A stretch of 34,127 nucleotides of DNA from Gammaproteobacteria bacterium (GTDB taxonomy: Bacteria; Pseudomonadota; Gammaproteobacteria; Ga0077536). The notes beneath the pieces are model-generated. The model had not been told where the DNA came from. It worked only from the letters and a program-made list of their open reading frames with translations, and did not search any database. The stretch is taken from contig JAUIFX010000024.1 of NCBI GenBank assembly GCA_030429865.1, positions 1-34,127 of the forward strand, given 5' to 3'. Shown here piece by piece: positions 3,549 to 26,599 of the stretch (position 1 is the first letter of the stretch; every line of letters starts with the position of its first letter). A program made the translations under genes and the position numbers.

Positions 3549-5741
3549 TCACCGCCGCGGGCCGCCGCGGCGCAGCTCGGCGACGAGCGTCTCGTGCGCC
3601 CGCGTGTTGCGCCGCGGCGTCAGCGGTTGCCCCAGGTGCGGCCACAAGCCGTGCCGGATGGGCTCGGGCAGCACGTTCTCGAGGTATTCGAGGGCGGTCC
3701 CCCGGATGCCGCGGTCGGAGCTGAACACGGCGCGGAAGGACAGCCGCAGCGCGTCGCGGTCGAGTACCAGGCTCAACAGCGTGAACACGTGCTCGAGGCT
3801 GTAGTCGACGCGCATGCCGCTGTCCGCGGCGACGGCGTCTTCGCCCTGCATGACGTCGTCGACGCGGATGTCGCGTTCGGCCCATTCGCGTGCCGGCACA
3901 CCGACCTCGCGGGCGCACGCGGCGTACACGCGTTCGCTGTCGATGGCCAGGCCCGGATCGCGTCCGAGCATGCGCGACAGCGCCCGCGCGCTCGAGTAAC
4001 GCACGTTGAACTCGGTGTCGTCGAGACCGTGCAGCAAGGCCTCGACCACGCGTGGTTGCGGCGACACTTCGAGCACGCTCGGCAGTCGCTGGCGCGCGAG
4101 CAGCGGGACGTCCGGATCGAGCAGCGCGTCGGTCAGCGTGCCGACGCACTGCGGCACGATGAAGCGCAGCTCCGTGCGCGCAAGGTCGGCGAGCGCGTCG
4201 ACGGCCAGCATCGGCACGACGAACGGCGCCAGGCGCGCATCCATGAAGGCCCCTTCGAGGCAGGCACGCACGCGCGCGCCGTCACCAGAGCTGAGTGCGG
4301 CTACCGCGCGTGCCAGGTCCGCGCTCGGTCCGCCCGGCGGCGCCACGGTGTCCGGATGCGCCGGCAGCGCGTGGTCGCTGTCGCCGCGCGCTTCGCGCTG
4401 CGCCTCGATGCGCGCCAGCAACAGCTTGCGCTCGGTCGACGCGGAGGCTTCGGCGAGCGTCTGGCGGGTCGTCGCGTCGACGATCTCGTCATCGGCGATC
4501 GAGATCAGGCCGTCGCGCAGGTTGTCGGCGAGCTGGGCGACGTAACCCCGGTAGAGGCGTCCGACCACGACCAGCGTGAGCACGGCGACCCCCAGCGCGA
4601 CGACGATCACAATCAGCGAAGGCAGCTCGGGCAGGAGCGCGAGCAGGCCGAGCACGATACCGCCGCCGATGACGTCGCCGAGGCGGTCGGAGGCGACGTC
4701 GATGAAGGATTTCGTCGGCCGCTTGCGCATCGGTGGCAGCGGCGTGTAGAGCAGCTCGAAGGCCGAACGGAAAAACGAGTTCTGCACGACCATCTGGCCG
4801 CCACGCAGCAACACCACGGTCCACAGCCGCAGCGCGAAGACGTTGAGCAGGCCGGCGGCGATGACGACGATCGGCAGCGTGGCGAGCGTCGCGCCGATGC
4901 CGAAGCGGTTGAGCAGGCGCGGGCCGGCCAGCGACTGCACCGCGAACGTGACGACGCCGGCGATGGCATAGAAGCGGCCGAACAGGCCGACCAAGGCGGC
5001 TTCGTCGCTGAGCATGCGCGCGGCCTCCGCCTTGAACGCGTAGTCGACCAGCGCGGCGAGCACCGCGACCAGCGTCATGAGCAGCCCCATCAGCGTCAGG
5101 TAACGGTGGCGGAACAGCAGGCCGAGCCCCGACTCCACTTCTACCTCGACCGCCTGTCCGGCTGCCGGCGCCGACGCGCGGCCGATGCCGCGCACGGCCA
5201 GTGCACAGGCCAGGTGCAGACCGCCCAGGACCACGATCATCGCGCGCGCATCGAGCATCGCCGCGACGCGGTCGGCGAGCAGCCCGCCAATCACGCCGCC
5301 GAGCGTGGCCGCCGCGGCGACCTGGGCGATGGTGCGCTTGGCGGTGTGCGGGTCGAAGCGCTCGTTGACCACCGACCAGAAGCCCGAGATCAACACCGCG
5401 CCGAATACCGCCATCTGCAGGTACAGCGTGAGCGCGGCCAGCCCCGGCTGCGCCGCGTAAAGCAGCCAGCTACCGACGAACAAGGTGGCGCTGAGGAGAA
5501 ACGCCAGCGGCACCACGCGCGAGGGACCGAAGCGCGCCAGCAGGCGCGACATCACGATCACCGCGAGCATCGAGAGCAGCGCCGCGACGATGACCATCTT
5601 GGGCAGCTGGGTCACGTCGTAGTGTGAGAGGAATACGGCGTCGCGGGTCGCCTTGCCGCCGACCTGGTGCGCGATCATCAGCGTCGCCGAGACCAGCGCG
5701 AAGGCGGTGGCGTAGCGGGTACTGGCGGAGGCTGGGGTCAT
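3549..5741 (-). CDS. ATP/ADP-translocase (NTT/TLC)-type MFS transporter with HEAT-like C-terminal domain
   Basis: About 730 residues from ATG 5741. An in-frame ATG at 5807 would add 22 residues; neither has a good ribosome site, and I prefer 5741 because membrane segment 1 follows at once. The first ~430 residues form about 12 membrane spans. GGKATRDAVFLSHY in the first loop resembles the TRDxxFLS loop of bacterial NTT/TLC-like carriers, which exchange nucleotides or related molecules in characterised members. The last ~290 residues are soluble, with helical repeats such as LLHGLDDTEFNVRYSSARALSRML that look HEAT-like. It is the last gene of a leftward operon, 119 bases after the VWA gene (53 if the longer start is used). 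The transported molecule is unknown, and the soluble tail may be a protein-binding platform. Confidence 0.7.
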   Translation of the reverse strand: MTPASASTRYATAFALVSATLMIAHQVGGKATRDAVFLSHYDVTQLPKMVIVAALLSMLAVIVMSRLLARFGPSRVVPLAFLLSATLFVGSWLLYAAQPGLAALTLYLQMAVFGAVLISGFWSVVNERFDPHTAKRTIAQVAAAATLGGVIGGLLADRVAAMLDARAMIVVLGGLHLACALAVRGIGRASAPAAGQAVEVEVESGLGLLFRHRYLTLMGLLMTLVAVLAALVDYAFKAEAARMLSDEAALVGLFGRFYAIAGVVTFAVQSLAGPRLLNRFGIGATLATLPIVVIAAGLLNVFALRLWTVVLLRGGQMVVQNSFFRSAFELLYTPLPPMRKRPTKSFIDVASDRLGDVIGGGIVLGLLALLPELPSLIVIVVALGVAVLTLVVVGRLYRGYVAQLADNLRDGLISIADDEIVDATTRQTLAEASASTERKLLLARIEAQREARGDSDHALPAHPDTVAPPGGPSADLARAVAALSSGDGARVRACLEGAFMDARLAPFVVPMLAVDALADLARTELRFIVPQCVGTLTDALLDPDVPLLARQRLPSVLEVSPQPRVVEALLHGLDDTEFNVRYSSARALSRMLGRDPGLAIDSERVYAACAREVGVPAREWAERDIRVDDVMQGEDAVAADSGMRVDYSLEHVFTLLSLVLDRDALRLSFRAVFSSDRGIRGTALEYLENVLPEPIRHGLWPHLGQPLTPRRNTRAHETLVAELRRGGPRR

Positions 5742-5860
5742 CGCTGGAATCGCCGCGGTGGACGTCGGCGCTACGGCGCGGCGACGAATGAAAGGCCCGC
5801 CTAGCATACTGCGAATCGACGGCTCGAGGCGGCCGGGCGTGGCCCGGCCGCCCGCGCCGC

Positions 5861-7087
5861 TCAGTGCCGTGCCTCGGCTTCGTAATGCAGGCCGACCTCG
5901 GCGGCCTGGCGGCGCACGGTATCGTAGAGCTTGTCGTCGAGCGAAGCGCCGTGGCTACCGCGTGTCTCCAGTTCGGCGGCGATGTAGGCATCGCGCTTCG
6001 CGGCGAGATCCGCGATCGACGCCTTGAGCTCGGCGCGTCTGCCGGCCTGCTCGGCGACGTGGGCCCGGCGCTCCTCGGCGCTCATCGCGGCGAGCGGCGC
6101 CGGCAACGCCTCGGCCGCGACGGTGTCGAGCGCGACGCGCCCGCTCGTCACCGCCTCGACCAGTTCGTCCTCACCGGCGAAGCTCGCATCGCCCGCGGCG
6201 CTCGTGTTGAACAGGGCGCGCCGGGCCAGCGCCTCCGGTGCGGCGGCCGCGTGCAGCTTGGCCGTGGCACGCTCCTTCGCGGCAGCGCGCTCGCGCGCGG
6301 CGCCGGCGCCGAAGAACACGCGCGTCGCGTCCATCTCGGCGGCGAGGCGGCCGAGTTCGGCATCGAACGGCGTGCTCACGGCAACCGCACCGCCGTTCTG
6401 GCCGACGGCGATGTAGTCGCCCTGGGCGAGCGTGGCGATGTGCTGCCACACGCGTGCCGTGTCGTGCTGGCTGCCGCACTGGATGGCGTTGACGACGATG
6501 CCGCGCGCGCTGGCGAGCGCGACGATCTCGGGATAGCGACGTTCGCCCTGGTAGTCCATGTGCGGCGGGGCGTCGCCGACGAGGAAGACGACCCGGTAGA
6601 CGTTGTCGTCATCGCTCCAGCTCATGCGTTCGACCGCCTCCGCCAGGGCCTGGTTGACGGCTTCCGGACCATCGCCGCCGCCGCTGGCGCGGAAGTCCAT
6701 CAGCGCGGCGTACATCGAATCGAGATCGCTCGACAGGTCGACCACGCGGGTCACGTACTCGTCACCGCGATCGCGATACGCGACCAGGCCCATGCGGATC
6801 TCGGGCGCCGGATCGGCCTGCGCCATGGATGCCGCGATCGACCAGATCTTGTCTTTCGCCGCGTGGATCAGTCCGCCCATCGAACCCGTGGTGTCGAGCG
6901 CGAAGACGACCTCGATGCGCGGCCGCTGTCGTGCCACGGAGGGTGCCGGCCGTGGCGTGACGGTCGCTGCGCCAGGTGTGACGGGCGTGGCCGGTGTGGC
7001 GCCGGCGCGGCTGGCGAGACCAGGATAGAGGACCACGGCCGTCGCGGTGGCGCAGAACAGGGCAAGAGCGGGAAGCGTGTGTTTCAT
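5861..7087 (-). CDS. Secreted von Willebrand factor A (VWA) domain protein
   Basis: 408 residues. A signal peptide or N-terminal anchor (MKHTLPALALFCATATAVVL) is followed by a Pro/Ala/Thr-rich linker to about residue 52 and then a VWA domain. The metal-ion-dependent adhesion motif DTTGSMG starts at Asp65, with further features GLVAYRDRGDEYV, SGGGDGPEAVNQAL and VFLVGDAPPHMDY. After about residue 255 the protein is Ala/Glu/Arg-rich and probably helical. VWA domains bind protein partners through a divalent metal; with a signal sequence this one acts in the periplasm or at the membrane. The gene sits 29 bases after the small membrane-protein gene, in the same operon as a PspA-like protein, which suggests a job in envelope surveillance or complex assembly. 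Confidence 0.8.
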   Translation of the reverse strand: MKHTLPALALFCATATAVVLYPGLASRAGATPATPVTPGAATVTPRPAPSVARQRPRIEVVFALDTTGSMGGLIHAAKDKIWSIAASMAQADPAPEIRMGLVAYRDRGDEYVTRVVDLSSDLDSMYAALMDFRASGGGDGPEAVNQALAEAVERMSWSDDDNVYRVVFLVGDAPPHMDYQGERRYPEIVALASARGIVVNAIQCGSQHDTARVWQHIATLAQGDYIAVGQNGGAVAVSTPFDAELGRLAAEMDATRVFFGAGAARERAAAKERATAKLHAAAAPEALARRALFNTSAAGDASFAGEDELVEAVTSGRVALDTVAAEALPAPLAAMSAEERRAHVAEQAGRRAELKASIADLAAKRDAYIAAELETRGSHGASLDDKLYDTVRRQAAEVGLHYEAEARH

Positions 7088-7116
7088 GATCGATGTCTCC
7101 AGTGTGATGAATGCAA

Positions 7117-7665
7117 TCAGGCGCCGCGTTCGAGCCGCGCGAGGGCAGCCGCGGCCGTGGCGCGGGCGCGCGCGAGGTTGTCGCTAGGCCGGCAGCCAGG
7201 CGCCGCGCGCCCCGGCAGGCCGGCGAACGACGCCTGCACGAGGAAGAAGCACCACGCCGCGAGCAGCACGCTGCCGGTGTGGCGGAAGGCCGCGCACGAG
7301 GCGGCGACGGCGACACCGCTCAGGGCGAGATCGAGGACGCCGGCGAGCACGCCGTGGTGATGGAACAGCACGCGCAGCAACCACAGCAGGAGCGCGTGCG
7401 CGGCGACGAGCAGGGCCGGATGCGGTGCGGCGGCCCACAGTGTGAGCGCGGCAATACTCCAGGCGAGGGCGACGACGACGCGCCCCGTCGAAGTCGCGCT
7501 GCGCGCGATCAGCCAGCAAGCACAGGCTGCCGCGGCGAGCGTGACGGCAAGCGCGAACGCCGTGCCCGCGGGAGCCAGCAGGCGCGACATGAGGTACGTC
7601 GCGGCGCTGCCGGCGGCGAGCAGCGCGGCCATGCCGACGCTCTCGGCAAAGCCGACGCGGCTCAT
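7117..7665 (-). CDS. Small multi-pass membrane protein in the PspA-like/VWA operon
   Basis: 182 residues, mostly hydrophobic: SVGMAALLAAGSAATYLM, TAFALAVTLAAAACACWLI, VVALAWSIAALTLW, ALLLWLLRVLF, LAGVLDLALSGVAVAASCAA and VLLAAWCFFLVQASFAG give five or six spans, followed by a short basic tail. Its ATG overlaps the stop of the PspA-like gene by four bases (ATGA), so translation is probably coupled. I recognise no family. Its place suggests a membrane anchor or partner for the PspA-like and VWA proteins, but that is inference. Confidence 0.7.
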   Translation of the reverse strand: MSRVGFAESVGMAALLAAGSAATYLMSRLLAPAGTAFALAVTLAAAACACWLIARSATSTGRVVVALAWSIAALTLWAAAPHPALLVAAHALLLWLLRVLFHHHGVLAGVLDLALSGVAVAASCAAFRHTGSVLLAAWCFFLVQASFAGLPGRAAPGCRPSDNLARARATAAAALARLERGA

Positions 7666-8195
7666 GTCCGCTGCTCCCGGCGCTGCTGCTTCTCGTGCAG
7701 CAGGGCGATGTCGATCTCGGCGGCGCTCGGTGTCGTCGCCACGATCGTGTCGGCGGCCGGCGCCGCCGCCGGCTCGCTCAACGCCGCGAGGCGCGCGCGC
7801 AGCGCCGTCAGTTCGGCGCGGGTCGCGGCTTCGCTCTCGGCGAGTTCCGCGCGGGCGGCGGCATGCCGCTCGCGCGTGTGAGCGATGTCCTCGCGGCGGC
7901 GCGCGTGCTCGAGTTTTCGCCGTACCAGGTCGCGTGCGAGCGCGTCCTCGTTCACCGCGAGACAGCTATCGAGTTCGCCATCGAGACGGGCGAGGGCGTC
8001 GGCGAGATGCGCGTCCTCGCGGGCGAGGGCATCGTCGGCGGCGCCGAGCGCACGCGCGCGTCCGGCCATCGCCACGAGTTCCTGTTCCATGTCGCGCAGC
8101 GCCTGGCGCGCGAGCAGGGCCGGCTCCTCGATACGGTCGAGCAGGGCGTTGAGATCGGCGCTCAGGAGGCGCGCGAAGCGGTTGAAAAGGGGCAT
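7662..8195 (-). CDS. PspA/IM30-like coiled-coil protein
   Basis: 177 residues from the ATG at 8195, chosen because GAGGAG lies 10 bases upstream; the frame is open further upstream but that part lies in the promoter region. The N-terminus PLFNRFARLLSADLNALLDRIEEP, then ALRDMEQEL, follows the amphipathic helix and first hairpin helix of PspA/IM30 proteins, and the rest is one long Ala/Glu/Arg coiled coil to about residue 140. PspA-type proteins assemble on damaged inner membrane. This one is shorter than the usual ~220 residues, ending in a Pro/Ala-rich tail (SEPAAAPAADTI), and lacks the last helices. It is the first gene of the leftward operon, divergent from a two-component system. Confidence 0.75.
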   Translation of the reverse strand: MPLFNRFARLLSADLNALLDRIEEPALLARQALRDMEQELVAMAGRARALGAADDALAREDAHLADALARLDGELDSCLAVNEDALARDLVRRKLEHARRREDIAHTRERHAAARAELAESEAATRAELTALRARLAALSEPAAAPAADTIVATTPSAAEIDIALLHEKQQRREQRT

Positions 8196-11329: not shown

Positions 11330-11495
11330 TTAAGGAACCTCTGAACAAGTCATGACTCGGCACCTCGCGCGCGCGCTGTCCGATTTCCGCGTTGCGACGC
11401 TTCGCCATAGCCGGCTATGACGGGCGCGTCGCGCCTTGAACTCGAACAGCGCGAACACGAACTGCTCGGCCCAGACTTATTCAGAGGTTCCTTAA
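11330..11495. mobile_element. 166-bp MITE-like element with 22-bp terminal inverted repeats (IS5-like)
   Basis: The left end (11330-11351, TTAAGGAACCTCTGAA...) and the right end (11474-11495) are inverted copies matching at 21 of 22 bases. At the exact centre is the perfect palindrome CATAGCCGGCTATG (11406-11419), and the two halves pair imperfectly along most of their length, so the whole element can fold into one long hairpin. It has no gene. TTAA at both outer edges could be the target duplication. Size, TIRs and hairpin structure are those of a non-autonomous miniature element; the end sequence is reminiscent of IS5-family elements. It lies between the kinase gene and the nitrile hydratase operon and could also stop transcription. 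Confidence 0.8.
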
Positions 11496-11572
11496 TCGGT
11501 ACGAGCGAGTGGGCATGCCCGCGCGCCAGGCCGGAACTGCTTCCTGCCGGGCGCCGGCGAGCGGAGAGCACG

Positions 11573-12202
11573 ATGAACGGTATTCACGACATGGGCGGGC
11601 TGACCTGCTTCGGGCCCGTGGTGCGCGAAGTCGACGAACCGGTTTTTCACGACGGCTGGGAACGGCGCGTGTTCGCCGTCAGCATGCTGAGCGGCTCGGC
11701 GCTCGGCCCGGTCGATGCGTTTCGCCATGCCATCGAGCGCATGGATCCGCAGCACTACCTCGCTACCACCTACTACGAGCACTGGCTGGCCGGCATCGAG
11801 CGGCTGGCCGCCGAACGCCACCTGGCGGACGCTGCGCCAGCCGCGCGTACCCTGCAGGCCGAGCAACTCGATGCGATCGTCGCGCGCGGCGTGAGCGCCG
11901 CACGCGACAGTGATGACTTCCGCCCGCGCTATGCCGTCGGTGACGCGGTGGTGGCGAAGAACCTCAATCCGCGCGGACATACGCGCCTGCCCCGCTACGT
12001 GCGCGGGCGACGCGGCGAGATCGCTGCCGTGCGCGGCAACCACGTGTTCCCCGACACCGCGGCACACCTGGCCGGTGAGCATCCGCAGCCGCTGTACTCG
12101 GTGCGTTTCTCCGCACGCGAGCTGTGGGGACCGGACGCCCCGGCCAGGGACAGCCTCTACCTAGACCTGTGGGAGAGTTACCTGGAGGATCCCGCGCGAT
12201 GA
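11573..12202 (+). CDS. nthB: Nitrile hydratase beta subunit
   Basis: 209 residues beginning [16 protein letters not shown], the hallmark N-terminus of nitrile hydratase beta chains, followed by [28 protein letters not shown] and [12 protein letters not shown]. The C-terminal barrel contains [32 protein letters not shown], then [17 protein letters not shown] and DLWESYLE. Together with the alpha subunit it hydrates nitriles to amides in the cytoplasm and supplies part of the active-site cleft. GGAGAG lies six bases before the ATG. Gene order beta-alpha-activator with overlapping stops and starts matches the cobalt-type operons of pseudomonads. No amidase gene is in the window. Confidence 0.95.
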
Positions 12203-20200: not shown

Positions 20201-21052
20201 ATGAACTCACGCAAGAGAACTGCGCACGCGTCTGCCGTGTGCCTGCTCGGTGCCTGCCTTGCCCTGTGCAGCGGGCCACTCGCCGCACGCGAGGTCAAGA
20301 AACTCGTCATCACCGACTTCACGAATTCGTGTGGCGGTGACGACGTCGGCGCATGGAACAACATGGTCGACGGCTGGTACGACGAGATGGACGACGAGAG
20401 CTATACCAAGGACGGCGCGTACGTGAACGGCAACATGACGCTCGAACGTTTCTGCGATCCGGACTGGAACGGCGACTGCGACGACGATCACTACATCGAC
20501 GACGCGGACGCCTTCATCCTCGGCACGCACGGCGCCGACTCGGGCGATCACTGGCAGGGCGTGATGCGCTGGAGCTGGAACGGGCATTGCCGCGTCGACG
20601 GCGGTGGCAGTTCCGACGAGATGTGGGTCGGCGACTGGGATGCCGAGTTCATCACGCTCGCATCGTGCAACAGTGCGGACGACGACAACCTGCCGGGGAT
20701 CCGCAATGCGATGTTCGATCCCTTCGACACTCCCGGCCACGGCCGCCGGGCGCACCAGTGGGACGCCTTCCACGGCGTGATGTGGATCTCCAACGGCCGC
20801 CGCGGCGATTACGACGACGTTGCCGACGACGGCCACGACGGCTCGATCTCCGACGCCTGGGTCTACAACCAGAAGGACAGCAAGCAGTGCCCGGTGGCCT
20901 ACGCCATCAGCAGCTCGCGCAACGGCTGCCTCGTGCGCCTTAACTACGAGCGCTACAACTACATCTACGGCGATCCTCCCGGGCACAACTGGTACTGCTG
21001 GAAAGCCTACGCCAACTGTGATCCGACCGGCGAAACGGCCTGGAATCCGTGA
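20201..21052 (+). CDS. Secreted clan CD-like (caspase-fold) cysteine protein, DUF6345-like
   Basis: 283 residues from ATG 20201, with GGAGG about eight bases upstream. The signal peptide ends near GPLAA/REVKK. Two strand-plus-residue motifs stand out: ADAFILGTHGADSGDHW (His110-Gly) and AEFITLASCNSADDD (Cys156). A hydrophobic strand ending in HG and a second ending in xxC is the catalytic dyad layout of clan CD peptidases (caspases, gingipains, and DUF6345-type proteins). The mature chain has nine cysteines, compatible with four disulfides and one free, possibly catalytic, Cys. It is very rich in Asp, Trp and Gly. The gene leads a two-gene operon with another secreted protein. Fold and peptidase activity are inferences from motifs. 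Confidence 0.65.
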   Translation: MNSRKRTAHASAVCLLGACLALCSGPLAAREVKKLVITDFTNSCGGDDVGAWNNMVDGWYDEMDDESYTKDGAYVNGNMTLERFCDPDWNGDCDDDHYIDDADAFILGTHGADSGDHWQGVMRWSWNGHCRVDGGGSSDEMWVGDWDAEFITLASCNSADDDNLPGIRNAMFDPFDTPGHGRRAHQWDAFHGVMWISNGRRGDYDDVADDGHDGSISDAWVYNQKDSKQCPVAYAISSSRNGCLVRLNYERYNYIYGDPPGHNWYCWKAYANCDPTGETAWNP

Positions 21053-21109
21053 CGACGGACGCGTCCGATCGCGCCGATCGTCATGCCATCGAACCCGGGA
21101 GACAGCACC

Positions 21110-22255
21110 ATGTATCACTCATTCATCCGCACGCTGCCGGTCCTGCTGGCGGCAGCTTCGTTCAGCACCGTCCTGCTCGCCGTGCCCGACGGCGGTGATC
21201 GTCCGGTCACGCCACCGCTCGACCCGCCGGGCATGGATCGGCTCCGCCAGATCATCGATGCGGCGATGCCCGAGGACGTGCAGGAAGACAACGGCAAGCT
21301 GCTCGTCAGCCTGCTCAAACCGCGCGTGGCGCCGAGCGATCCGTCCGGCGCGTTCAACGTCATGACCGCGCCGCGCGCGCTCGGCATGCGACGGCCGCGC
21401 CCGAGCAAGGACTGCTTCGCGCCGCCGCCGCGCTTCGCCTGCGAACTGGTCGAAGGCACGCGCGAGGGCGGTGGCGCGTTCAAGAAGGTCGAGGCCGACA
21501 GCCTCGGTAACCTGAGTTTCGTCAGTCGCCTGCCGGACCCTTCCAACGGCGCGCCGGAGCAGGTCGGCGCGGCGCCGCTACCGAGCTTCAGCATGAGTGA
21601 CAAGGAGGCCGTGGCGGCCTTCTTCGATGTCTTCACCAAGGTTTTCGGCGTACCGCCCGAAGAGGCGCCGGACAGCAGCGAGTGGCAGGTCGAGAAACTG
21701 CTGCTCGGCCTGCAGGACGGTAACGAACCCGGCAAGCCGCCCGAGATCCATACCATCGCCGGCACCGTGCAGGTGCCGCGCATGCTCGAGGTGGCGGGGC
21801 TGAGCATGCCGCGCGTGCCGGTGCTCGGCGCACACGCGCAGGGGTCGATGGACGATCTCGGCCGCGGCATGCCGTTCCGCGTCGAAGTCCAGGAGTGGAC
21901 GCGGTTCACGTTCCCGCCGGCGTTGCAGAGGGCCCGCGCGCGCGGCCGCAGCGAGCTGGTCGGCGAAATCGCCGAGGCGCTCGTCAACGCGTTGCGCAAC
22001 GCGCCCAAGGACGTCGCGATCGAAATCGCCTACGCCAAAGTCGGCCAGTTCGACGAGCTCGGTTCTTACGGTGGTCCCGATACCGACGATGCGGGAACGC
22101 CCGCCGACGGCATTCCCGATGCCCACCGTTACGTGCCGGTGCTGCTCACCTCGGTGAGCCCGATGGCGCCGGATGCCTCGGAGGAAGAGCAGGCTGGTGC
22201 GTTCAGCACCGCCGGCCAGGAACTGGTCACGCCGTTGTTCGAGCTCAACGAATAG
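21110..22255 (+). CDS. Secreted protein of unknown function, partner of the caspase-like protein
   Basis: 381 residues from ATG 21110, with GGGAG nine bases upstream; an in-frame ATG at 21083 is less likely, lacking a ribosome site. Signal peptide HSFIRTLPVLLAAASFSTVLLA is followed by a Pro/Asp-rich segment. Further on are two nearby cysteines (KDCFAPPPRFACELVEG), a helical part AVAAFFDVFTKVFGVPPEE, and a C-terminal part with SELVGEIAEALVNALRNAP. No family recognised. It follows the caspase-like gene after 57 bases on the same strand, so it may be that protein's substrate, inhibitor or co-secreted partner; this is inference from position. Confidence 0.6.
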   Translation: MYHSFIRTLPVLLAAASFSTVLLAVPDGGDRPVTPPLDPPGMDRLRQIIDAAMPEDVQEDNGKLLVSLLKPRVAPSDPSGAFNVMTAPRALGMRRPRPSKDCFAPPPRFACELVEGTREGGGAFKKVEADSLGNLSFVSRLPDPSNGAPEQVGAAPLPSFSMSDKEAVAAFFDVFTKVFGVPPEEAPDSSEWQVEKLLLGLQDGNEPGKPPEIHTIAGTVQVPRMLEVAGLSMPRVPVLGAHAQGSMDDLGRGMPFRVEVQEWTRFTFPPALQRARARGRSELVGEIAEALVNALRNAPKDVAIEIAYAKVGQFDELGSYGGPDTDDAGTPADGIPDAHRYVPVLLTSVSPMAPDASEEEQAGAFSTAGQELVTPLFELNE

Positions 22256-22358: not shown

Positions 22359-23219
22359 ATGACCAAGCCATTCATCACAGGCGCCTGCGCGGTGCTGCTC
22401 GCATGCGTGGCGGGCGCTGCCCATGCCGCCGTTACGCTGCCGTCCGGCGATTTCTTCCAGGACGGTACGCTCGAACTCCTCTACGGCGACAACGGCTCGG
22501 CGCGCATCGATCCGGCTCTGTACGTCGATAGCAACGAGCTGTTCGGCCCGGGTGCGCTCGGCGAGGTCTACGCGCCTCCGACCGGCGCCGAGTTCGCCAC
22601 CGGGCTGGCTTTCGATTACAGCTTCTCTGGTATCGGCACGGACACCATGACGGTGGTCTACGGCATCACCAACCAGACCGGTCTCACCTGGACCGGCCTG
22701 CGTTTCCTCGCCGACGTCTCCGGCAATCCCTTCGACGGCCTGCTCGAACTCGCCAGCGTGCACGGCGCACCGTTAACGGCCGCCGACCCTGCCGCGTGGG
22801 GTATCGACGACTTCGACACCGGCAACCTCTACATCACCGACATCCTCGGCGCCGGTCAGCTCGACAACAGCGACGGCTGCGGCGGCGTCGCCTGCGCGGC
22901 CGAGGGCGCCTTGCAATGGAACCTCGACCAACTCGCCGACGGGCAGCGCTGGGTGGTCACCGTACAGCTCTCCGAAGCCGGCCTCGTCGGTTCGCAGCGC
23001 TGGCTCGAGTTCGCGCTCGACGACGGCGGACCGACCGGCGACGTCCTGAGCTTTTCGGGCCAGGCGGTGGTCGTGCCGCTGCCGGCCGCGGCGTGGCTGC
23101 TGCTCGGCGGAGTACCGCTGCTGGCGGCGCGGCGTCGTGCCGCCGGCGCCGAACGCGCGGTTCAGCCGCGCGGACAGAGCGCGACGCCGAGCAGGCACAG
23201 CACGCCCAGGGCGAGGTAG
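22359..23219 (+). CDS. VPLPA-CTERM surface protein with C-terminal extension
   Basis: 286 residues. The signal peptide is followed by GACAVLLACVAGAAHAA processing, then VTLPSGDFFQDGTLELLYG, MTVVYGITNQTGLTWTGLRF, and QLADGQRWVVTVQLSEAG. VPLPAAAWLLLGGVPLLAARRR (around residue 239) is a full VPLPA-CTERM signal, but 26 more residues follow the basic cluster, whereas the tail normally ends there. Those extra codons overlap the 3' end of the convergent membrane-protein gene (23162-23219). GGAAGGAG lies eight bases before the ATG. Export by Sec and anchoring by exosortase are inferred from the tail. Confidence 0.8.
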   Translation: MTKPFITGACAVLLACVAGAAHAAVTLPSGDFFQDGTLELLYGDNGSARIDPALYVDSNELFGPGALGEVYAPPTGAEFATGLAFDYSFSGIGTDTMTVVYGITNQTGLTWTGLRFLADVSGNPFDGLLELASVHGAPLTAADPAAWGIDDFDTGNLYITDILGAGQLDNSDGCGGVACAAEGALQWNLDQLADGQRWVVTVQLSEAGLVGSQRWLEFALDDGGPTGDVLSFSGQAVVVPLPAAAWLLLGGVPLLAARRRAAGAERAVQPRGQSATPSRHSTPRAR

Positions 23220-25549: not shown

Positions 25550-26599
25550 TCAGGGCCCGGATGCTGCCGCATCACGCTCGCCATCGACGAGCGTGATGTC
25601 GCGGCGGATTCGCGCTGCGGGTCCATCGCCCCGAACGCAGCCGGTCTCGCCGCCCTCGGTGTGCACGCCGACACGTGCGAGGAGCGCCGCGTAGTCGGGC
25701 ATCGTCTCCAGTGCGCGGAAGCGGTCATACAGGGGCACGAACAGTGCCGTGCCCGCGACGTGGTCGAAGGCCGCCACGAGAGCGGCACCGTCCGTGATAT
25801 CGCCATCGTCCAGGCAACATTGGCCGAAGCGCTGCATGACCCGATCCAGGCTGAGGGCCGGCGTGCCGGTGCGCAGGGCGAGGTCGGCCTCCAGAAAGTA
25901 CGCCACGCCGCTCCAGTAGACGCGCATGTAGCTCCCCAGCGCGTGCATGTCGCGGCTTGCCGCGGCCAGCGGGCGCCGCGTGGTCTCGCCGCTCATCGCC
26001 GCACTGCCGCGCGCGAAGCCGGCCGCGATCCGGCGCCATGCCATGCATTCGGTGATGAGGCCGTCGCGCGCCTGCAACAGGTGCTGGTAGTAGGTCGCGA
26101 GACCTTCGGACAGCCACACGTCGGTCTTCCCCGGGTAGGGGATGAACAGGTGGCTCAACTCGTGCGGCGCCGTCCAGTCGGTCAGAAAGCGCTCGAGCGG
26201 AAACGCCGGGTCGACCCAGAAATGCACGCCCTCGCGGCCGCGGCGCAGGACGCGCGCGAACGGCACCGGTTCGCCGGCACCCCGGCGCGTTTCGACGACG
26301 ATGCGGATGTCGTCGCGCGGCAGTTCGCCGTGCAGCATCCGCACCGTGCGCGCGGCGCGCCCGAGCCAGCGCGCCAGCTTGTCGCGCTCGGCGGCGCCGA
26401 GCCTGGCATCCCAGGTGACGTCGAACGCGCTGGCGGTCCCGGGCAGGCGCTCGGCGCTGGCCGGTATGGCAAGCGCGCAGAGCAACGCGCACAGCACGCG
26501 GCCGACTCGCGCCGGCCAGCCGGGCCGCAAGGGCGTTGCAGGTGAGGCGCGCCTGGTGATCACGAACGTCGAGTATAGCCGTCGCCGCGACCGGACCAT
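25550..26599 (-). CDS. Gluzincin-type metallopeptidase-like protein (HEXXH...E)
   Basis: 349 residues as drawn from ATG 26599. The signal peptide is GRVLCALLCALAIPASA. The zinc motif HELSH (His146, Glu147, His150) is followed 15 residues later by Glu165 in SEGLATYY, the arrangement of M1/M61-type gluzincins, with the peptidase otherwise small. YMRVYWSGVAYFLEADLALR and LDRVMQRFGQCC follow. All zinc ligands and the catalytic Glu are present. The start is uncertain: a -10-like TATACT lies inside the first codons (26577-26572), and GTG at 26563 would leave a tidier signal peptide. It is divergent from the PQQ dehydrogenase. Substrate unknown. Confidence 0.75.
   Translation of the reverse strand: MVRSRRRLYSTFVITRRASPATPLRPGWPARVGRVLCALLCALAIPASAERLPGTASAFDVTWDARLGAAERDKLARWLGRAARTVRMLHGELPRDDIRIVVETRRGAGEPVPFARVLRRGREGVHFWVDPAFPLERFLTDWTAPHELSHLFIPYPGKTDVWLSEGLATYYQHLLQARDGLITECMAWRRIAAGFARGSAAMSGETTRRPLAAASRDMHALGSYMRVYWSGVAYFLEADLALRTGTPALSLDRVMQRFGQCCLDDGDITDGAALVAAFDHVAGTALFVPLYDRFRALETMPDYAALLARVGVHTEGGETGCVRGDGPAARIRRDITLVDGERDAAASGP

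Follow-up and report, generated by a model that had tools for sequence, protein, structure and literature searches.

Cysteine protease genes standing beside dedicated, co-transcribed inhibitor genes have been described for SpeB and Spi, for the staphopains and staphostatins, and for the C10 proteases of Bacteroides (Bfp/Btp) with their inhibitors Bfi/Bti (PMC3462683). In clan CD peptidases a glycine adjoins the catalytic histidine, and the catalytic pair is formed by His144 and Cys186 in caspase-7 (42 residues apart) and by His91 and Cys140 in MARTX-CPD (49 residues apart) (PMC4357240). In other peptidase systems FTP and PepSY modules are parts of propeptides, where they are inhibitory and prevent premature activity; the FTP motif has been given as HVRYxQTYNGIPVYG (PMC7851659).

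The locus considered here lies in a stretch of 34,127 nucleotides (contig JAUIFX010000024.1, assembly GCA_030429865.1, Gammaproteobacteria bacterium), which is called the window below. It consists of two open reading frames on the forward strand with 57 bases between them, as had been proposed in an initial annotation made from the sequence alone, and its features together with the gene that follows are as follows.

20201-21052, forward strand: gene of protein 1 (283 aa), a secreted DUF6345 (PF19872) protein and putative clan-CD-like cysteine peptidase, assigned by its Pfam match and 13 aligned non-redundant homologues
20201-20287, forward strand: signal peptide of protein 1 (residues 1-29, cleavage inferred after A29), with a hydrophobic N-terminus (KD10 2.76); the conserved mature part aligns from residue 30
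20528-20533, forward strand: His110-Gly111, putative catalytic histidine motif (in the family, His 13/13 and Gly 12/13)
20666-20668, forward strand: Cys156, putative nucleophile (Cys 12/13, one Ser with codon TCT in G176, locus L009; sole cysteine in L019-L021)
21053-21109, forward strand: intergenic gap of 57 bases (3-181 bases in other loci)
21110-22255, forward strand: gene of protein 2 (381 aa), the secreted partner without a family match, proposed to be an FTP/PepSY-like, propeptide-like chaperone or inhibitor
22359-23219, forward strand: third gene, a VPLPA-CTERM-like surface protein with a weak VPLPA-CTERM match, also found 3' of the pair in G001 and G006

Family membership and distribution

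Protein 1 matches the Pfam family DUF6345 (E 8.7e-10, 38.9 bits, above the gathering cut-off of 26.9), a family without an assigned function, and no literature naming DUF6345 or PF19872 was found in the papers searched. The earlier statement that protein 2 matches nothing holds, no family having been found for it in Pfam or NCBIfam, but the DUF6345 membership of protein 1 had been overlooked. A whole-genome search recovered the pair from 14 genomes in five GTDB families and two classes: the window's own family (G000, G001, G006, G014, G026), a second (G176, G1448, G1451, G1520), a third (G820, G857, G875), a fourth (G1184) and a fifth, which lies outside the window's class (G389). DUF6345 is sparse, being present in 3 of 398 genomes sampled across the phylum and in 2 of 369 across the class, and among the control genomes a match was also obtained in Methanosarcina acetivorans. 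The viral contigs, phages and plasmids searched held no relatives, which gives no support to a mobile-element or phage origin, and an empty PADLOC scan likewise gives none to a known defence system.

A conserved unit of two genes

Each of the 14 loci has the second gene immediately 3' of the DUF6345 gene and in the same orientation, with a gap of 3-181 bases, and the pair is kept as a unit in all of them. Among the 58 relatives checked protein 2 is restricted to genomes which also have protein 1. Secretion of both proteins, as first proposed, agrees with their hydrophobic, signal-peptide-like N-termini. The signal peptides moreover co-vary, being absent from both proteins in G1184 and present on both in all other loci, as one would expect if the two proteins have to come together. 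The G1184 pair (L022, 535-2241, reverse strand), whose genes stand 3 bases apart, is apparently a cytoplasmic version.

Proteins of the PEP-CTERM/VPLPA type flank the pair in the window, and to this extent the earlier description of a row of surface proteins was right; the setting is however absent in G026, where the genes 5' of the pair encode EpmA, EF-P and an EpmB-like protein (names given by eye from the translations), and the PEP-CTERM setting was for this reason rejected as part of the system. A homologue of the third gene is located 3' of the pair in G001 (L010, 3794-4591) and in G006 (L015). The cluster may comprise three genes in the window's lineage, the third being probably accessory or unrelated. 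The conserved unit is taken to be two genes, because EF-P and its modification genes stand upstream of it in G026 and a VPLPA-CTERM-like third gene accompanies it in G001 and G006.

Other genes of the window

The product of 25550-26599 (reverse strand) scores 21.6 bits against Peptidase_M61, just short of the cut-off of 22, and L010 encodes a similar, HELTH-containing protein at 7064-8077 (reverse strand). The gene at 3549-5807 (reverse strand) joins a TLC ATP/ADP-transporter/MFS-like membrane domain to C-terminal HEAT repeats, which is an unusual combination. A nitrile hydratase beta-subunit-like gene (N and C domains) is placed at 11417-12202 (forward strand), just 3' of a histidine kinase gene.

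The putative active site

For the conservation counts 13 non-redundant DUF6345 proteins were aligned, which represent two classes and five GTDB families. Seven positions are invariant (D100, D103, H110, G144, S155, W220 and P259) and four more are kept in 12 of 13 proteins (G111, C156, H185 and H191). The window protein has ten histidines, and H110 is the sole invariant one among them; C156 is the sole conserved cysteine, every other cysteine being found in at most 9 of the 13. The two residues first picked from one sequence, His110 and Cys156, are those retained by the family (13/13 and 12/13 respectively). His110-Gly111 stands behind the hydrophobic stretch DDADAFILGT-HG and Cys156 behind a second one, AEFITLAS-C, as had been noticed at the outset; throughout the family the pattern reads D..D-hydrophobic-HG, then hydrophobic-SC, the strands being judged from hydrophobicity alone, with 39-47 residues between H110 and C156.

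Activity is probably not retained everywhere, since one member has serine for Cys156 and one has serine for the glycine after the histidine: in G176 the C156 codon is replaced by TCT (the close relatives G1451 and G1520 retain cysteine), and G389 has HS in place of HG. The G176 protein (L009, 1363-2277), in which 8 instead of 9 mature cysteines are present and the partner gene is still in place, is a possible pseudo-enzyme. Pseudo-enzymes with tyrosine or serine replacing the dyad are known among orthocaspases (PMC6426788).

Cysteine parity provides a second line of evidence. Mature protein 1 has nine cysteines (44, 85, 93, 130, 156, 230, 243, 266 and 273), the number originally counted. In all 12 secreted members that retain C156 the mature chain holds an odd number of them (9, 9, 9, 9, 9, 7, 9, 9, 7, 1, 1, 1), C156 being the only cysteine of the homologues in L019-L021. 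The C156S member has 8 mature cysteines; the L022 protein, alone in lacking a signal peptide and therefore not expected to form disulfides, has 6; and the counts of the partner proteins are all even. Odd parity is what would be expected if every cysteine except C156 were paired and C156 stayed a free thiol. As a sign that Cys156 is a free thiol the parity is supportive rather than decisive, because the independent lineages are few, about six. The same count may serve as a cheap detector of free nucleophilic cysteines in other secreted families.

AlphaFold models of the mature proteins, each built on an alignment of just three near-identical sequences, reached a pLDDT of 27.2 for protein 1 and 31 for protein 2, too low for either model to be usable. 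Profile searches of Pfam, PADLOC and PDB sequences gave no clan CD family match for protein 1. The PDB profile searches returned chance matches only, and the influenza hemagglutinins that the partner profile picked up (E 0.026 or higher) were dismissed as chance helix matches. Since protein 1 showed no detectable homology with known clan CD families, it is not filed as a member of the clan; to judge from its motifs, it most likely works like a clan CD cysteine peptidase. The catalytic role suggested earlier for His110 and Cys156 is supported by their (near-)invariant positions, by the clan-CD-like motifs and spacing, and by the parity that would mark Cys156 as the unpaired thiol.

The partner protein

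The partners are 309-382 aa long and retain a common core region. Window-type and G176-type partners are clearly homologous to each other, with E values from 1e-7 to 1e-17 (decoys 0.1 at best), and the G1448 partner (L027) bridges to other partner types. A profile of the window type together with L027 scored 43.4 against the L019-L021 type, where the best of 200 column shuffles reached 21.1 and reversing the profile gave 19.5; with a wider partner set including L007 and L022 the profile score was 36.2 against a maximum of 21.5. Taken alone, the L007 and L022 partners do not score significantly with the window type, and they join less firmly. By these profile comparisons most partners belong to one superfamily, and the downstream partner of DUF6345 appears to be undescribed so far.

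Among the 13 partners no FTP, PepSY or DUF4901 match rose above threshold, and the window's own protein 2 gave not even a sub-threshold one. Sub-threshold Pfam matches were obtained to FTP for L020 (E 0.17) and to DUF4901/YcdB for L027 (E 0.18) and L007 (E 0.3); these three share one aligned region with an 'NG[IL]PV.G'-like core (for example RSLNGLPV and REIDGIPVVG), which resembles the FTP motif of PMC7851659. In an ungapped FTP-motif test weak significance was reached by some partners only, window protein 2 not being significant. Because FTP/PepSY modules are inhibitory parts of propeptides, we infer that protein 2 is better regarded as a propeptide-like chaperone or inhibitor acting in trans. 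Of the two roles initially offered for it, substrate or inhibitor, these weak signals favour the latter, with a chaperone function added to it.

Proposed mechanism and alternatives

The conserved positions of the dyad, the cysteine parity and the constant adjacency of the genes are the observations from which the explanation starts. It is proposed, with a probability of roughly 50%, that the locus encodes a clan-CD-like cysteine peptidase and a trans-encoded, propeptide-like chaperone or inhibitor. Protein 1 would be a secreted cysteine hydrolase, most likely a peptidase, with a fold of the clan CD (caspase-hemoglobinase) type and a His110/Cys156 dyad, in which the remaining eight cysteines of the mature chain would form four disulfides. 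Protein 2, probably carried on the same transcription unit and exported to the same compartment, would bind protein 1 and serve in trans as its propeptide, either aiding the folding of the enzyme or keeping it inactive until protein 2 is removed or degraded.

Strict adjacency of the two genes would equally be expected if protein 2 were the dedicated substrate of the peptidase, from which cleavage frees an active or surface-bound form without any inhibition, and the faster divergence of protein 2 points the same way (window and G176-group sequences share, for example, 24-30% identity in protein 2, compared with 52-55% in protein 1). Such a role is nevertheless unlikely, as the partner lengths are steady and the common core is kept, a few partners resemble the propeptide-type FTP/YcdB modules, and no conserved cleavage-like linker was seen. 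It is just as improbable that protein 1, clan-CD-like in architecture, serves chiefly in binding or structure and forms a stable extracellular complex with its partner without proteolysis. The serine at the nucleophile position of the G176 member and the other surface proteins flanking the window pair would suit such a complex, but a structural role does not require that a free thiol be retained beside an invariant histidine motif, and C156 is the only family-wide cysteine and the only one at all in L019-L021; the cysteine-less C10 protease BtpZ, too, sits with an inhibitor among active relatives (PMC3462683). A third alternative of similar standing, that protein 1 is not of clan CD but some other His/Cys enzyme (for example acyl- or amide-transferring) with an accessory secreted subunit, draws on sequence searches that found nothing similar among the solved clan CD structures and on the near-invariant His185 and His191 and the invariant Trp220 outside the clan CD motif, and is improbable in view of the D..D-hydrophobic strand-HG and hydrophobic strand-SC order and the 39-47 spacing, which fit clan CD well.

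With the peptidase and its trans-encoded propeptide-like partner as the preferred reading, DUF6345 would gain a constant partner and, in the His110/Cys156 dyad, a concrete mechanism open to test. If it is true, there is a lineage of cysteine peptidases that depend on a second gene for their propeptide or inhibitor, and current libraries have missed a partner superfamily. A broader and more tentative generalisation, rather doubtful at present, would make all of DUF6345 a hitherto overlooked and widely scattered family of clan-CD-type cysteine peptidases. In every case the propeptide would be encoded next door by a gene of its own, from a new FTP/PepSY-like superfamily, and the two genes would form an obligate zymogen system of bacteria.

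Comparison with known systems

With clan CD (caspases C14, legumain C13, clostripain C11, gingipain C25 and MARTX-CPD C80) protein 1 shares the order of motifs and a similar spacing, whereas it has no profile match to the clan and carries the additional conserved His185, His191 and Trp220. In known clan CD members the inhibitory regions lie within the enzyme's own chain (PMC4357240), while here the candidate is encoded by the neighbouring gene. The FTP/PepSY propeptides of M4 metalloproteases and the YcdB (DUF4901) repeats are weakly resembled by the L007, L020 and L027 partners in one shared region; in contrast to the N-terminal M4 propeptides, the partner is a separate gene, and it is paired with a putative cysteine enzyme and not with a metalloprotease.

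In gene arrangement the closest systems are SpeB-Spi, staphopain-staphostatin and the Bacteroides C10 proteases, in which a cysteine protease gene adjoins the gene of its dedicated inhibitor; among the last, BtpZ lacks its cysteine as the C156S member does. SpeB, the staphopains and the C10 proteases are however papain-fold enzymes, whereas protein 1 is a clan-CD-like candidate; their inhibitors are small (Bti 116-138 aa) next to the DUF6345 partners of 309-382 aa; and the best-studied of these inhibitors act in the cytoplasm, as described for Spi and the staphostatins (PMC3462683), in contrast to protein 2 with its signal peptide. If a clan-CD-like enzyme indeed has a large partner that is exported and encoded separately, this would be a new variation on the known protease-inhibitor arrangement.
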